DNA of 7,541 nt from Anaerolineales bacterium (GTDB lineage: Bacteria > Chloroflexota > Anaerolineae > 4572-78 > J111), in contig JAAUSP010000373.1 in the NCBI GenBank assembly GCA_012032575.1, positions 1 through 7,541 on the forward strand, written 5' to 3'. Shown here piece by piece: positions 3,763 to 7,541 of the stretch. Each line of letters begins with the position of its first letter. Position 1 is the first letter of the stretch. The notes under the pieces were generated by a model. It saw only the letters and a list, made by a program, of their open reading frames with translations, did no database searches and had not been told where the DNA came from. The translations under genes and the position numbers were made by a program.

Positions 3763-3772
3763 AGGCGAGGGG

Positions 3773-3846
3773 GATGAGGCGAAGACGCGAGGAGGCGAGA
3801 GGACTTATCTTCTTCGCCTCCTCGCCGCACGAGTCCTCGCCTCATC
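3773..3846. repeat. GAGGCGA-type palindromic repeat, copy 2
   Basis: The outer arms GATGAGGCGA (3773-3782) and TCGCCTCATC (3837-3846) are perfectly complementary. Inside them GGAGGCGA-type units face TCGCCTCC-type units. It is homologous to the repeat at 2916-2995, which lacks the left outer GATGAGG part. Similar purine-rich sequence (AGAGGCGAGG) begins at the TAG stop of the C26 peptidase at 3760-3762. It lies in the gap before murI and carries no T tract. Confidence 0.8.
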
Positions 3847-3885: not shown

Positions 3886-4686
3886 ATGACTGACTCACGG
3901 CCTATCGGTCTGTTCGACTCGGGGGTGGGCGGCCTGTCGGTGTGGCGCGAGGTGGTGCGGCGGATGCCCCACGAAGCCACGCTCTATTTTGCCGACAGCG
4001 CTCACTGCCCCTATGGCCCCCGACCGGCAGCAGAAATCCAGGCGTTATCGGCTGCTATCACCCGTTTTTTGCTGACCCACGAGTCCAAATTGATCGTTGT
4101 GGCCTGCAACACGGCCAGCGCCGCGGCGCTGGAATCCCTGCGGGCCGAGTTTGACGTGCCGATTATCGGCATGGAACCTGCCCTCAAACCCGCCGCCGAA
4201 GCCACTCAGACCGGCCACGTGGGCGTCCTGGCGACCGAAGGTACGCTTAACGGCTACCTGTTCAAAAACACCTCAGAACGCCACGCCCGCGCCATTGAGG
4301 TGCATGTGCAGGTGGGTGAGGGCCTGGTCGAACTGGTTGAAGCGGGTCAACTCGATACGCCCGAAACGGAGTCCCTGCTGCGCCAGTACCTCGAACCGAT
4401 GCTGACCGCCCATGCCGACCAGCTTGCTTTGGGCTGCACCCATTATCCCCTGCTGCTGCCGCTCATCGAGCGGGTGGTGGCCGGCCGCGCCACTGTGATT
4501 GACCCGGCCCAGGCCGTCGCCCGGCAGGTCCAACGCGTGCTCATGCAGCGCAATCTGGAAACCGAAACCGGCTGTGTGGCCCAGCATCGCTTTTTCACCA
4601 CCGGACAGCCGAACATTCTGCAAAGGCTGGCTTCAGTCCTGAGCCAACATACGGTACAGGTGAGTCCTGTGCAGTTGATCGCTTAA
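3886..4686 (+). CDS. murI: Glutamate racemase
   Basis: Cofactor-independent interconversion of L- and D-glutamate in the cytoplasm, supplying the D-Glu of peptidoglycan stem peptides. The 266-aa length is normal. Active-site residues are all present: Asp11 in IGLFDSGVGGLSV, the first catalytic cysteine Cys74 in VACNTAS, and the second pair Cys184 and His186 in ALGCTHYP. The substrate-loop motif DSAHCPYG is at 37-44. The ATG at 3886 places the family N-terminus correctly; upstream there is only a weak GGGGAT at 3871-3876, 9 nt away. It follows the C26 peptidase in the same direction across a palindromic repeat. No separate promoter is evident in the short gap, so co-transcription with the LysM and C26 genes is plausible. 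A perfect 11-bp hairpin follows the stop. Confidence 0.96.
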   Translation: MTDSRPIGLFDSGVGGLSVWREVVRRMPHEATLYFADSAHCPYGPRPAAEIQALSAAITRFLLTHESKLIVVACNTASAAALESLRAEFDVPIIGMEPALKPAAEATQTGHVGVLATEGTLNGYLFKNTSERHARAIEVHVQVGEGLVELVEAGQLDTPETESLLRQYLEPMLTAHADQLALGCTHYPLLLPLIERVVAGRATVIDPAQAVARQVQRVLMQRNLETETGCVAQHRFFTTGQPNILQRLASVLSQHTVQVSPVQLIA

Positions 4687-4775: not shown

Positions 4776-4804
4776 TTGACAAAATCTCTATCAGTAACTA
4801 TTAT
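4776..4804 (+). promoter_or_regulatory. Promoter of the Rrf2 regulator gene
   Basis: A perfect -35 TTGACA (4776-4781), a 17-bp spacer and -10 TATTAT (4799-4804; five of six consensus bases). This is close to the ideal sigma-70-type promoter and so would be strong unless repressed. The -10 box lies in the centre of the palindrome at 4790-4814. Confidence 0.85.
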
Positions 4805-4814
4805 AGTTACTGAT
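4790..4814. promoter_or_regulatory. Operator 1: 11-bp inverted repeat over the -10 box
   Basis: The perfect arms ATCAGTAACTA and TAGTTACTGAT are separated by TTA. The core AGTAAC-N7-GTTACT recurs before the aldo/keto reductase gene at 5295-5317 with identical half-sites and spacing. The position across the -10 box, just upstream of a transcription-factor gene, is the standard layout of autorepression. The regulator bound is inferred to be the adjacent Rrf2 protein. Confidence 0.8.
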
Positions 4815-4829
4815 TGTAGGGAGTCTAGC

Positions 4830-5279
4830 ATGGGGATTATCAGCAGCCGCTTTTCTTTAGCGGTGCATATTTTGGCTTTGTTGACCATCGAGGATAAGGC
4901 GGAGGCGACCACTTCGGAGTACCTGGCCCGCAGCGCCAACACCAACCCGGTGGTCATCCGGCGTATCCTGGCGATGCTGGGTAAGGCCGGCCTGCTGACG
5001 GCTCAAGCGGGGGTTAGCGGCGGGGTTCACCTGGCCCGGTCGCCCCAACAGATCACACTGCGCGATGTTTATGAAGCCGTGGAGAAGGGCGAAATTTTCA
5101 CGTTTGGCTCGCGTGAGCCAAACCCTTACTGCATTTGTGGCCGCAGCCTGGAGCCGGTGATGAAGAGTGTGTTTCAGCAGGCCGAAGCGGCCCTGGAGCA
5201 AACCCTGGCCCAAATGACCCTGGCTCAGGTGGCGCAGGAAGTGGAGCAAATAGATGCTCTGACCTGCCGATCCGCCTAA
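4830..5279 (+). CDS. Rrf2-family transcriptional regulator (YwnA-like)
   Basis: A 149-aa DNA-binding protein, expected to be a dimer. The start ISSRFSLAVHILALL is typical of the YwnA-like branch. A winged helix-turn-helix spans about 26-70, with a recognition-helix region NPVVIRRILAMLGKAGLL (39-56) and a wing AGVSGGVHLAR (60-70). A dimerisation helix lies at about 107-141. The three-cysteine Fe-S cluster motif of IscR/NsrR-type members is not seen: cysteines are Cys101 and Cys103 (YCICG) and Cys146 near the C-terminus. A thiol or ligand sensor is therefore more likely than a classical cluster, but this is inference. The ATG at 4830 has AGGGAG (4818-4823) 6 nt upstream; the in-frame TTG at 4776 would start within the -35 box and is rejected. 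Matching palindromes before this gene and the next point to autoregulation and control of the aldo/keto reductase. Confidence 0.93.
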   Translation: MGIISSRFSLAVHILALLTIEDKAEATTSEYLARSANTNPVVIRRILAMLGKAGLLTAQAGVSGGVHLARSPQQITLRDVYEAVEKGEIFTFGSREPNPYCICGRSLEPVMKSVFQQAEAALEQTLAQMTLAQVAQEVEQIDALTCRSA

Positions 5280-5294
5280 ATTTTTTTGTGGATT

Positions 5295-5317
5295 TTAGTA
5301 ACTATATCGGTTACTAA
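5295..5317. promoter_or_regulatory. Operator 2: matching palindrome upstream of the aldo/keto reductase
   Basis: The arms TTAGTAAC and GTTACTAA are perfect with a 7-nt centre TATATCG. The core half-sites and the 7-nt spacing equal operator 1 (AGTAAC-N7-GTTACT). By analogy with operator 1 the -10 box would be TATATC at 5303-5308, but no good -35 sits 17 bp upstream, so the promoter itself is not called. It lies 36 nt before the GTG start. Confidence 0.78.
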
Positions 5318-5353: not shown

Positions 5354-6379
5354 GTGCGTTACAAACTGTTTGGCAAAAGCGGCTTGCGTGTGTCGGAATT
5401 AGCGTTGGGGACGATGACCTTTGGCCCTGAGTGGGGCTGGGGCGCTTCAAAAGAGGAGAGTCAAAAAATCTTTGAGGCGTATATGGAAGCGGGCGGCAAC
5501 TTTATTGATACGGCCAATCGCTACACCGAAGGCACCGCCGAGAAGCTTGTCGGCGAGTTTATTGCCAGCGACCGGGACCATTTTGTGCTGGCCACCAAGT
5601 ACAGCCTCTTCATGCGGCGCGATGATCCCAACTTTAGCGGCAACCACCGCAAAAATATGGTTCACTCGCTGGAGGCCAGCCTCAAGCGACTCAACACCGA
5701 CTATATTGACCTTTACTGGGTCCACGCCTGGGATTATATGACCCCGGTCGAGGAGGTGATGCGGGCGCTGGACGACCTGGTGCGGGCCGGCAAAATTCTG
5801 TACGTGGGCATTTCCGACACCCCGGCCTGGATTGTCTCGCAGGCCAATACCCTGGCCGAACTGCGCGGCTGGTCCCGCTTTGTGGGGGTGCAGCTTCAAT
5901 ACAGCCTGATCGAGCGCAATATCGAGCGGGAATTGCTGCCACTGGCGCGGGAAACCGACATGGCCGTGACAGCCTGGGGGGCGTTGGGGGCCGGGGTGTT
6001 GAGCGGCAAGTACAACAACAATACCTCCGCCGAGGGCCGGGCCGCTCTCTGGGGCAGCATTTCCGACAAGAATCTGCGGATTGCCCAAACCGTCAGCGAG
6101 GTGGCCCAGGAGCTTGAGCGCACCCCTTCGCAGGTGGCAATCAACTGGGTGCGGCAGCAGCCGGGGGTGATGATTCCGCTGATTGGGGCCAAAAAGGCCG
6201 ACCAGGTTAAAGATAATCTGGCCTGCCTCGATTTTACCCTCACAGACGAGCACCTGGCCCGCCTGAATGAAGTCAGCAAAATTGAACTGGGTTTCCCCTA
6301 TGACTTTTTGACCTCGGACGGGGTGCGCGACCTGGTTTACGGCGGAACCTTTGATAAGATAGATAATCACAGAGTTTGA
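5354..6379 (+). CDS. Aldo/keto reductase
   Basis: A 341-aa cytoplasmic NADPH-dependent oxidoreductase of the (beta/alpha)8 AKR superfamily, expected to reduce aldehydes or ketones to alcohols. The full catalytic tetrad is visible: Asp52 and Tyr57 in FIDTANRYTEG, Lys82 in LATKYS, and His124 in LYWVHAWD. The start region MRYKLFGKSGLRVSELALGT is a canonical AKR N-terminus. The late motif GVMIPLIGAKKADQVKDN contributes to cofactor binding in this family. The start is GTG at 5354 with AGAGAGGAAG ending at 5346, 7 nt upstream. It lies 74 bp behind the Rrf2 gene, with a copy of the same operator between them, so it is probably the main target of that regulator and may detoxify reactive carbonyls; the inducer and substrate are unknown. 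It converges with the transporter gene on the other strand. Confidence 0.93.
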   Translation: MRYKLFGKSGLRVSELALGTMTFGPEWGWGASKEESQKIFEAYMEAGGNFIDTANRYTEGTAEKLVGEFIASDRDHFVLATKYSLFMRRDDPNFSGNHRKNMVHSLEASLKRLNTDYIDLYWVHAWDYMTPVEEVMRALDDLVRAGKILYVGISDTPAWIVSQANTLAELRGWSRFVGVQLQYSLIERNIERELLPLARETDMAVTAWGALGAGVLSGKYNNNTSAEGRAALWGSISDKNLRIAQTVSEVAQELERTPSQVAINWVRQQPGVMIPLIGAKKADQVKDNLACLDFTLTDEHLARLNEVSKIELGFPYDFLTSDGVRDLVYGGTFDKIDNHRV

Positions 6380-6390
6380 GTCAGCCGCTT

Positions 6391-6425
6391 CAACCCTGTC
6401 AGGTCTCAAAGACCTGACAGGGTTG
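6391..6425. repeat. Perfect 15-bp hairpin (CAACCCTGTCAGGTC)
   Basis: CAACCCTGTCAGGTC at 6391-6405 and its exact complement at 6411-6425 flank a TCAAA loop, starting 11 nt after the aldo/keto reductase stop. No T tract follows. The perfect arms and the place between convergent genes suggest a mobile or dispersed palindromic repeat that may also end transcripts from both sides. Confidence 0.75.
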
Positions 6426-6434
6426 GGATATGCA

Positions 6435-6534
6435 TGTCATTTCGACCGGAGGGAGAAATCCCTAAGACCTCGTCTTGTAAGAGTAGTTTTGAGAGATTTC
6501 TCGCTCCCTGCGTAGCGTGTCGCTCGAAATGACA
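6435..6534. repeat. Palindromic REP/MITE-like element with TGTCATTTCGA termini
   Basis: The terminal inverted repeats TGTCATTTCGA (6435-6445) and TCGAAATGACA (6524-6534) are perfect. Inside, GAGAAATC (6453-6460) pairs with GATTTCTC (6495-6502), so most of the 100-bp element can fold into an interrupted hairpin. I recognise the TGTCATTTCGA...GAGAAATC style of palindrome as common in intergenic regions of environmental bacteria, which is recollection and not a search. It encodes no protein. Confidence 0.7.
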
Positions 6535-6555
6535 AAGCCGCGTAAGTCCTGACTT

Positions 6556-6629
6556 TTACGGGAACAAGGGCCAAAGAATTGGCAGGGCCACGGCTACCAA
6601 AATCAGATAGGTCAGGCTCAGGCCGAGGC
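6556..6629 (-). pseudogene. Out-of-frame C-terminal tail of the SLC13-type transporter
   Basis: Read on the minus strand one frame away from the transporter, this stretch encodes LGLSLTYLILVAVALPILW followed by PLFP and a TAA at 6556-6558. That is the final transmembrane helix and C-terminus expected for this family after YRFSDYTRVG. Adding one G (one C on the plus strand) next to 6629 restores a continuous reading frame. The loss is either a real frameshift mutation or a sequencing or assembly error. Confidence 0.75.
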
Positions 6630-7541
6630 GACCCTGGTGTAATCGCTAAATCTGTAACCACCCGGCCCAAACACCAGAGTGTTGGACTGGTGGCCGATGG
6701 GGGTCAGATAATCATTGCTGACGGCAATCACCACAGCCATTAAAAAAGCGCGCGGGTCTGCGCCGAGACTCTGGGCGATGTTGATCGCGATCGGGCCAAT
6801 CAAAACAATGGCAGCGGCATTGGACAGCGATTGGGTAATTAAAGCCGACAGCACATAAATACCGAGCAAAATCGCCAGCGTGCCAAATCCGGCCATCTGC
6901 GCCACCACCAAATCGGCCAGATATTTGGCCGCGCCGGTTGACTCCATGGCCAGGCCCATGGGCAGCATCCCGGCAATCAACAGGATCGAGCGCCAGTCAA
7001 TGGACTGGTAGCCCTCGTCAATGTTCAATACTCCCAGCAAAACCATCAGCAGCGCCGCAATCACTCCGGCCAGGGCGATGGGCAGCAATTCGCTGATAAT
7101 CACCACCAGAAAGACAGCGAAAATAGCCAGGGCAATCGGCGCTTTGGCGGTGCGGCGCGTTTCGATGGGGACGGGTTCCAGCACCAGGAAGTCGGAGCTG
7201 GTGCGCAGGATGTTGACAAAATCGCGCCGGCCCTGCACCAGCAGCATATCGCCGGGTTGAAGGGGTTCTTCGCTCAACTGCCCTTCGACAAAGTAGCCGC
7301 GCCGCCACAAAGCCAGTACCGTCAGCCGGTATTTTTCGCGGAAGCGAATGTCCTTCAGGCTTTGCCCGGCCAGGGTAGAACTGACATCCAGCACCACCTC
7401 GGCCACCATTACATCTTTGGAATTCAGATCAGATTCTTCGGTGTGCTTGGCATCCGGCTCGATCTGCAAATCGTGGCTGCGGCCGGCCTGCAAAATTTTG
7501 TCCAGGCTGCCTTTGACCAGCAAAATATCATTACCCAGAAT
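6618..7541 (-). CDS. SLC13-family permease with RCK/TrkA-C domains, 5'-truncated by window edge and frameshifted near its 3' end
   Basis: C-terminal 307 codons of an inner-membrane anion (sulfate, dicarboxylate or similar) transporter. The frame is open through the right window edge, so the TTG at 7523 is not the start. From the edge: the end of a first RCK_C domain (LGNDILLVKGSLDKIL), a second RCK_C domain (VMVAEVVLDVSSTLAGQSL through PGDMLLVQG), then the membrane half. Hydrophobic segments start at IALAIFAVFLVVIISELLPI, and the family motifs TQSLSNAAA, LTPIGHQSN and GPGGYRFSDY are present. After YTRV the frame runs into ASA and a TGA at 6618-6620, removing the last helix, which is encoded intact in the adjacent frame down to 6556. 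Substrate cannot be assigned. Whether the truncated form works is unknown. Confidence 0.88.
   Translation of the reverse strand: MLGNDILLVKGSLDKILQAGRSHDLQIEPDAKHTEESDLNSKDVMVAEVVLDVSSTLAGQSLKDIRFREKYRLTVLALWRRGYFVEGQLSEEPLQPGDMLLVQGRRDFVNILRTSSDFLVLEPVPIETRRTAKAPIALAIFAVFLVVIISELLPIALAGVIAALLMVLLGVLNIDEGYQSIDWRSILLIAGMLPMGLAMESTGAAKYLADLVVAQMAGFGTLAILLGIYVLSALITQSLSNAAAIVLIGPIAINIAQSLGADPRAFLMAVVIAVSNDYLTPIGHQSNTLVFGPGGYRFSDYTRVASA

Follow-up and report, generated by a model that had tools for sequence, protein, structure and literature searches.

The window, as we call the whole stretch of 7,541 nucleotides analysed here, contains a series of genes that run in one direction, namely glutamate racemase (3886-4686), a Rrf2-family predicted repressor resembling YwnA and SifR (4830-5279, plus strand, 149 aa) and, as its probable target, an aldo/keto reductase (AKR; 5354-6379, plus strand, 341 aa, GTG start). 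The latter two were both identified by Pfam profile search (PF02082 with 119.4 bits and PF00248 with 264.6 bits, respectively). Two exact copies of the palindrome AGTAAC-N7-GTTACT are present, at 4793-4811 and 5297-5315, where about 4 × 10-5 would be expected in the window under a first-order Markov model. No further exact copy was found in the window, and five other matches carry three mismatches, which bears out the first-pass annotation on the uniqueness of the pair. The two copies are also two of the three perfect 6-7-6 inverted repeats in the 7,541 bases. The first is the exact core of a 25-bp palindrome (operator 1, 4790-4814) in which the centre base alone is unpaired, and the second (operator 2, 5297-5315) pairs 8 bp on each side of 7 unpaired bases; neither is assigned to a strand.

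Operator 1 overlaps the Rrf2 promoter (4776-4804, plus strand), which consists of TTGACA (4776-4781), a 17-nt spacer and TATTAT (4799-4804) and matches the consensus at 11 of 12 positions. TATTAT forms the first six bases of the operator spacer, and the operator lies over the Rrf2 -10 box just as the earlier reading had it. That reading also placed the second site correctly, in the gap between the Rrf2 and AKR genes, but its description of both sites as lying at promoter regions does not hold for operator 2: a consensus scan of the window finds no recognisable promoter hexamers there, and a T-tract occupies the place where they would be. This tract of seven T (5281-5287, plus strand) lies 3' of the Rrf2 stop codon and spans exactly positions -17 to -11 relative to the core G of operator 2, its end falling 10 nt before that G. 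Judged by sequence and promoter consensus, operator 2 has the layout of a roadblock site, downstream of a promoter and without a recognisable one of its own, and it is proposed here as a roadblock operator.

The regulator belongs to the Rrf2 family by both profile and fold. Its match to PF02082 (cut-off 30) covers the whole domain, and structure prediction (mean pLDDT 89.5) yields a winged helix plus the long helix used for dimerisation, with Foldseek matches to 1ylf and 1xd7. The nearest solved sequences are likewise YwnA (1xd7) and a Rrf2 protein of Bacillus cereus (1ylf). The protein has three cysteines, C101, C103 and C146, the first two forming the CxC motif C101-I-C103, and in the predicted model the long helix (102-127) starts directly after C101. 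The CxC motif, which the first-pass annotation linked to a carbonyl or thiol sensor, is not general: among Chloroflexota it is present at 13 of 49 loci, and outside that phylum at 0 of 125, and C103 is common to L001, L002, L004, L099, L103, L105 and L109. Scores for the Fe-S Rrf2 regulators IscR, NsrR and RirA fall far under the curated cut-offs. Compared with the Fe-S ligand sets of these proteins (taken from PMC9218516), the connector region of the window protein has only C101 and C103, C146 lies near the C-terminus, and the spaced ligands are absent.

Among the closest known systems is SifR of Streptococcus pneumoniae, described in excerpts of PMC9218516 as an Rrf2 repressor that senses through one cysteine and lets go of DNA when quinone adducts form. 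SifR and the window protein both have, where helix 5 begins, the cysteine of a PNPxC motif (PNPYC in the window), and the SifR regulon includes YwnB and a catechol dioxygenase, comparable to the NmrA-like and VOC-fold partners described below. The two differ in that SifR has one conserved cysteine within HxxPNPxC, whereas the window protein has Ser at the His position and a second cysteine that creates CxC. With three cysteines it departs from the single conserved cysteine that defines the YwnA/SifR monothiol group; we consider that it works like this group, of which it is strictly a CxC variant. According to the same excerpts the sequence TGTAA-N9-TTACA is bound by SifR and also by HypR. At both window operators the inner GTAA-N9-TTAC is exact, while the outer pair is A..T and not T..A. 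Because the core agrees with this published SifR/HypR operator, we class the regulator as a probable variant, in Chloroflexota, of the electrophile sensors of the YwnA/SifR type; its partner here is an AKR. In the excerpted account (PMC9218516) the neighbourhood of sifR gives no hint of function, and a T-tract is not mentioned.

YwnA of Bacillus subtilis is closest in solved sequence (1xd7) and, like the window regulator, is encoded next to a reductase, which is however YwnB and not an AKR; both ywnA and ywnB are reported to be induced by allicin (4.6-6 log2, excerpts of PMC6943732). Our comparison of operators and T-tracts in Bacillus covers species of the genus other than B. subtilis strain 168. 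HypR of Staphylococcus aureus shares the identical core palindrome (PMC9218516), and the hypR-merA operon holds a redox enzyme (PMC6943732), as far as the excerpts go. It differs in being a two-cysteine sensor (C33/C99; PMC9218516, in part): the window protein has no cysteine near residue 33 and scores 53.8 bits against the HypR profile NF041852, for which the curated cut-off is 180. In the excerpted NsrR study (PMC9338935) the seven central bases of the operator could be changed without clear loss of binding, which fits a spacer that is free to hold a -10 box.

To describe the conservation of the paired sites we used 174 loci with distinct Rrf2 proteins, drawn from 80 initial loci and from genome samples. 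The initial loci, reached through two conserved peptide patterns, are the best 80 of at least 586 confirmed relatives, and each genome sample (the class, phylum and order of G001, which is the genome of the nearest named relative; the phylum of G006; the class of G008) then contributed at most its 30 best loci. Duplicates and pattern-derived and AKR-derived loci (21 for an earlier 117-locus set, 51 for the 174-locus set) were excluded before counting, and then also identical proteins and loci without a match. Start codons and next genes were assigned by simple rules. The core was defined as the ten bases of GTAAC-N7-GTTAC and a site was counted at no more than one mismatch, with downstream sites lying within 250 nt past the Rrf2 stop codon; the nulls for site, promoter and T-tract counts are first-order Markov models or simulations rather than strict shuffles. 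In the phylum of G001, two large genomes of about 11 Mb (G709 and G699) have four YwnA-like Rrf2 profile matches each.

The core is found upstream of Rrf2 at 138 of the 174 loci (64 exact), in several phyla, past the Rrf2 stop codon at 92 (45 exact) and in both places at 77; in the earlier set of 117 loci the corresponding counts were 93, 61 and 50. At more than 600 bp from the genes in question, 836,715 bp of the 117-locus set held no exact core and eight with one mismatch. A downstream site at up to one mismatch is lacking at 82 of the 174 loci and in 32 of the 73 representatives with a co-directional next gene. Five of the 92 loci with a downstream site were assigned a next gene on the minus strand. 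At L012, L026 and L028 this looks like an artefact of ORF length, because an NmrA frame is present on the plus strand, and a plus-strand frame is present at L054 and L121 too. In the G001 genome, HGTAACN7GTTACD occurs four times, twice at the Rrf2 locus and twice with G+C-rich spacers. Over 10 genomes no genome-wide excess of this pattern was seen (0-8 sites each, with the backwards control equal or higher in every genome), as expected for a local regulator. That the palindromes arose by chance, or matter only as RNA hairpins, is hardly credible: both do fold as RNA (-12.8 and -7.9 kcal/mol for operators 1 and 2, beating most shuffles), but their sequence, spacing and position are kept across phyla, the core agrees with a published operator, and operator 1 overlaps its own promoter. 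The regulator and its core operator are of an already known kind, and taken by themselves the paired sites extend the SifR/YwnA group modestly, by new phyla and further partner enzymes.

The reductase belongs to the AKR superfamily by its PF00248 match, its nearest solved sequences are DepB (8hwn) and 4xk2, and D52, Y57, K82 and H124, which we take to be the catalytic tetrad D-Y-K-H, stand at the tetrad positions. As a partner of the regulator the AKR is local. In the census of 117 loci, the next co-directional frame is NmrA/YwnB-like at 43, a VOC-fold protein (glyoxalase/dioxygenase superfamily) at 8 and an AKR at 3, with many small groups besides and none called at 9. The three AKR loci are the window, L001 and L099, and at L109 an AKR follows after one intervening gene. 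The Rrf2-AKR circuit of the first-pass annotation is for this reason better described as a local pairing, and a conserved AKR partner was rejected in favour of NmrA-like proteins as the commonest one. Profile scans covered the NmrA and VOC groups whole and one representative each for 30 of the 45 other groups. All 43 NmrA-like partners match PF05368; the other partners include nitroreductases, DsbA-like thioredoxins, LigB dioxygenase, SDR and DoxX, together with a sigma factor, an ABC permease and a chemotaxis protein that have no evident link. The partners seen most often are of redox or ring-cleaving type, as suits an electrophile response, though this does not identify the inducer at this locus. 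Where the earlier reading had inferred reactive carbonyl or thiol stress, homology to SifR makes a quinone or another thiol-reactive electrophile the better guess; the substrate of the reductase, like the inducer, we infer.

A single origin of the AKR pairing was also rejected. In a tree of 43 rows the window, L001 and L099 form one clade (100/100) and L109 stands apart, and two changes are needed since L109 lies outside the AKR-linked clade. Relatives of the AKR number 29, in 28 of 396 genomes of the class, and for 26 of them no Rrf2 gene was found in the stretch examined and no core within 250 nt upstream at two mismatches. The two relatives with a directly adjacent Rrf2 gene have an exact core. 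In G217, which carries L109, the order is Rrf2, another gene, then AKR; no core lies within 250 nt upstream of this AKR, and the region upstream of Rrf2 has the symmetric variant GTAAT-N7-ATTAC (read by eye). The presence of the core with Rrf2-linked AKRs and its absence otherwise indicate that the operator accompanies the regulator and not the reductase. Of the orthologous pairs, whose comparison was proposed earlier, L001 and L099 have both sites, with outer bases A..T at the second. Taken with the paired sites at other partner genes across phyla and the AKRs that lack both Rrf2 and core, this supports the predicted autorepression and next-gene control by one local regulator. The AKR of L001 (Anaerolineales H5_CFX7, the closest named relative) is split into two frames, 6525-7157 and further; the equivalent in L099 is open throughout, and the break in L001 is an assembly error or a pseudogene.

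The upstream and downstream sites are of two kinds. Upstream sites in the 117-locus set show both promoter hexamers (at least 4/6 each) at one register in 74 of 93 cases, with the -10 box in the operator spacer, and no other register exceeds 9. Among non-Bacteroidota representatives, 50 of 57 have such a promoter-like match at the upstream site against 8.8 expected. Downstream sites instead show T at a frequency of 70-88% at each position from -17 to -11, falling to 14% at -10 (core G = 0; 43 representatives below 70% identity), a pattern that first emerged from base counts around the operators without being sought. At least five T of seven at these positions occur in 34 of the 43 representative downstream sites vs 3 of 66 upstream sites, while the simulated maximum was 12 (1000 draws) and the rotation maximum 13 (2000). 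By group, the tract is present in 12 of 12 representatives of Chloroflexota, 9 of 12 of Bacillota, 7 of 10 of Bacteroidota and 6 of 9 others, and T-rich windows starting between -45 and -22 occur in only 0 to 2 of the 43. Clustering at 50% identity leaves 24 representatives; their downstream sites number 8, none from Bacillota, and 7 of these have the T-tract. On the mirror side of the downstream operator the tract appears in 4 of 43, and it is therefore directional. The upstream operator is also present in 29 of the 34 T-type representatives. The 174 loci have 107 downstream sites in all; the tract alone is present at 70, the promoter hexamers alone at 7, neither at 30 and both at none.

Individual loci vary on this pattern. 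Five Bacteroidota loci (L180, L182, L183, L185 and L193) have an A-run followed by TTT instead of T7, with the same end at -11, and many Bacteroidota operators have GTAAT or ATTAC on one side. Four Paenibacillus loci with VOC-fold partners (L015, L037, L041 and L070) each carry a pair of downstream operators, which lie 63-119 nt past the stop codon, and at L037 one of these lies on a TTGACA-N17-TATACT promoter and lacks the T-tract (read by eye).

The spacing of the tract is tied to the operator. Runs of at least six T, found in 29 of the 43 representatives, end 9-12 nt before the core in all 29 and at 10 nt in 22, and they lie 0-75 nt from the stop codon. It is thus improbable that the tract is an ordinary intrinsic terminator of Rrf2 that happens to lie near operator 2 and acts independently of the repressor, since such a terminator would not explain why the spacing is constant with respect to the operator but variable with respect to the stop codon. 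Some loci do have a hairpin ahead of the tract (e.g. L022, L066 and L224), and among the 44 representatives that have no downstream operator, 17 have T-runs of at least six no more than 60 nt from the stop. A hairpin of -6 kcal/mol or better precedes the tract in 11 of 33 T-tract representatives, but only 6 of the 33 beat all 12 shuffles, no RNA hairpin was found before the T7 tract of the window, and L120 (in G709) has two tandem T7-N10-operator units just past Rrf2; hairpin energy led us to reject intrinsic termination as the general explanation. We also rejected a translation enhancer, because operator and start codon lie anywhere between 17 and 135 nt apart (in the 22 of 33 T-type representatives with a callable start), while tract and operator keep a fixed distance. 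Still more improbable is a DNA-shape element, in which a T/A-tract with a narrow minor groove or a bend would aid repressor binding or looping. The Bacteroidota variants with an A-run before TTT do retain A-tract character, yet the tract occurs in 3 of 66 sites of the operator 1 type and on 4 of 43 mirror sides, even though the repressor dimer is presumably symmetric.

A more serious competitor, though in our judgement an unlikely one, is that a separate promoter for the reductase overlaps operator 2, that the repressor blocks initiation there, and that the T-tract is an AT-rich -35 element or UP-like part. The tract at -17 to -11 nearly coincides with the position of TTGACA at operator 1 (-18 to -13), TATATC in the operator 2 spacer matches the -10 box at 4 of 6 positions, and promoter hexamers do occur at 7 of the 107 downstream sites; weak AT-rich promoters would, moreover, escape a consensus scan. 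Around T-type downstream sites, however, promoter-like matches are at the chance level (5 of 27 vs 4.3 expected), the window region has none, and on this ground the tract was rejected as a promoter. The tract is also kept in 7 of 10 Bacteroidota representatives, and the primary promoter consensus of Bacteroidota differs. With promoter matches at chance in T-type regions, the next gene is probably co-transcribed with Rrf2.

Further evidence against a separate promoter comes from composite sites that do not follow an Rrf2 gene. Thirty genomes that were known to encode such regulators, about 178 Mb together, were searched for exact T5-N10-operator; 17 of them contain 20 matches and the other 13 none, and the backwards control gave 1 match. 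Comparing coordinates by eye placed 16 of the 20 immediately after a known Rrf2 gene and 1 in front of such a gene. The remaining three (L234, L235 and L236) all have a promoter matching at 11-12 of 12 positions upstream, and an equally good promoter was found in 0, 1 and 0 of 400 simulations, respectively. At L234 and L235, which hold NmrA genes and, over 2.1 kb, no Rrf2 gene, the -10 box of this promoter lies under an operator with one mismatch, and the leader contains the T-tract operator, 71 and 61 bp further downstream. A clear promoter is thus already present upstream of the T-tract at these two loci, and the pair of promoter-operator and T-tract-operator exists without an intervening gene, as a double lock would. 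L236 weighs against a double lock: the T-type site stands before an MFS transporter gene, with the promoter 225 nt upstream and no operator at up to two mismatches on its -10 box. Several operator-like sites lie in front of this gene, and a short Rrf2 frame (L236:306-632, 108 aa) is divergent from it, about 325 nt away.

We favour, with a little better than even confidence, a double lock in which initiation is blocked at operator 1 and elongation is ended at operator 2. A repressor dimer on operator 1 would cover the -10 box and block initiation. Rrf2 and the reductase would share one transcript, and a dimer on operator 2 would halt the polymerases that leak through, since a repressor bound inside a transcribed region probably acts on the elongating polymerase. 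With its end 10 nt before the core, the tract lies 11-17 nt upstream of it, about where roadblocked polymerases stop; excerpts describe a polymerase stopping 14 nt upstream of a site held by the Gln111 mutant of EcoRI (PMC5499547) and Pol I stopping 15 bp upstream of the Reb1/Nsi1 site, inside T-rich sequence (PMC12366685). The Rrf2 footprint may be wider than the 17-bp core, and the stop point may then lie a few nt upstream of the tract. The halted polymerase would have the RNA 3' end in or beside T7, where the weak rU:dA hybrid would favour release, and with the RNA released there the reductase would not be made. Release by RNA polymerase II at T-tracts is possible without a hairpin (PMC7615648, in excerpt). 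It may nevertheless need a factor, perhaps Mfd or another one, because Mfd is a major termination factor at a LacI roadblock in E. coli (PMC10310618, in excerpt). An electrophile (a quinone by homology, with an oxidant or aldehyde also possible) would modify C101, perhaps together with C103, and the modified repressor would leave both operators and allow the full transcript, including the reductase. Looping to operator 1 is a possible alternative action of operator 2. Other observations that count against the double lock are the 82 loci lacking a downstream site, the 13 genomes that contain no exact composite, the A-run variant in Bacteroidota and the scarcity of convincing hairpins, in the window as at most loci.

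The broader proposal, to which we give somewhat less than even chances, is that T7-N10-operator is a conserved, inducer-controlled roadblock terminator of bacteria, in which the repressor would be the roadblock and the T-tract 11-17 nt upstream the release element. It would serve as the second lock, between genes or in a 5' leader, for YwnA/SifR-type repressors of Chloroflexota, Bacillota, Bacteroidota, Acidobacteriota and Myxococcota, and would resemble the eukaryotic Pol I terminator by convergence. At that terminator (excerpts of PMC12366685), a DNA-bound protein, Reb1/Nsi1, likewise halts the polymerase in a T-rich stretch about 15 bp upstream, and altering this stretch lowered termination. 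The polymerase and the protein are different ones, LexA was a poor replacement roadblock, inducer control is not described in these excerpts, and an RNA hairpin is required for release, whereas the window has none. The excerpted account of the LacI roadblock at O3 (PMC3711431) does not mention a T-tract, and in the portions of the open-access literature on Rrf2 and roadblocks that we searched, we found no bacterial intercistronic operator described as having a T-tract at constant spacing. If the proposal is true, repressor genes of the YwnA/SifR group control the next gene by ending transcription and not through a second promoter, and a simple sequence rule is at hand for finding roadblock operators in other operons. 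A test of the roadblock reading needs no more than a promoter, an operator and a single purified protein.

Two other repeat structures lie in the window. The peptidase C26 gene (3013-3762) is flanked by related palindromic repeats of GAGGCGAAGA / TCGCCTCCTCGCC units (2914-2995 and 3770-3846), which look like a mobile or REP-like intergenic repeat. Directly 3' of the AKR gene, a perfect 16-nt inverted repeat around CAACCCTGTCAGGTCT (6391-6425) is possibly the AKR terminator or another intergenic repeat.
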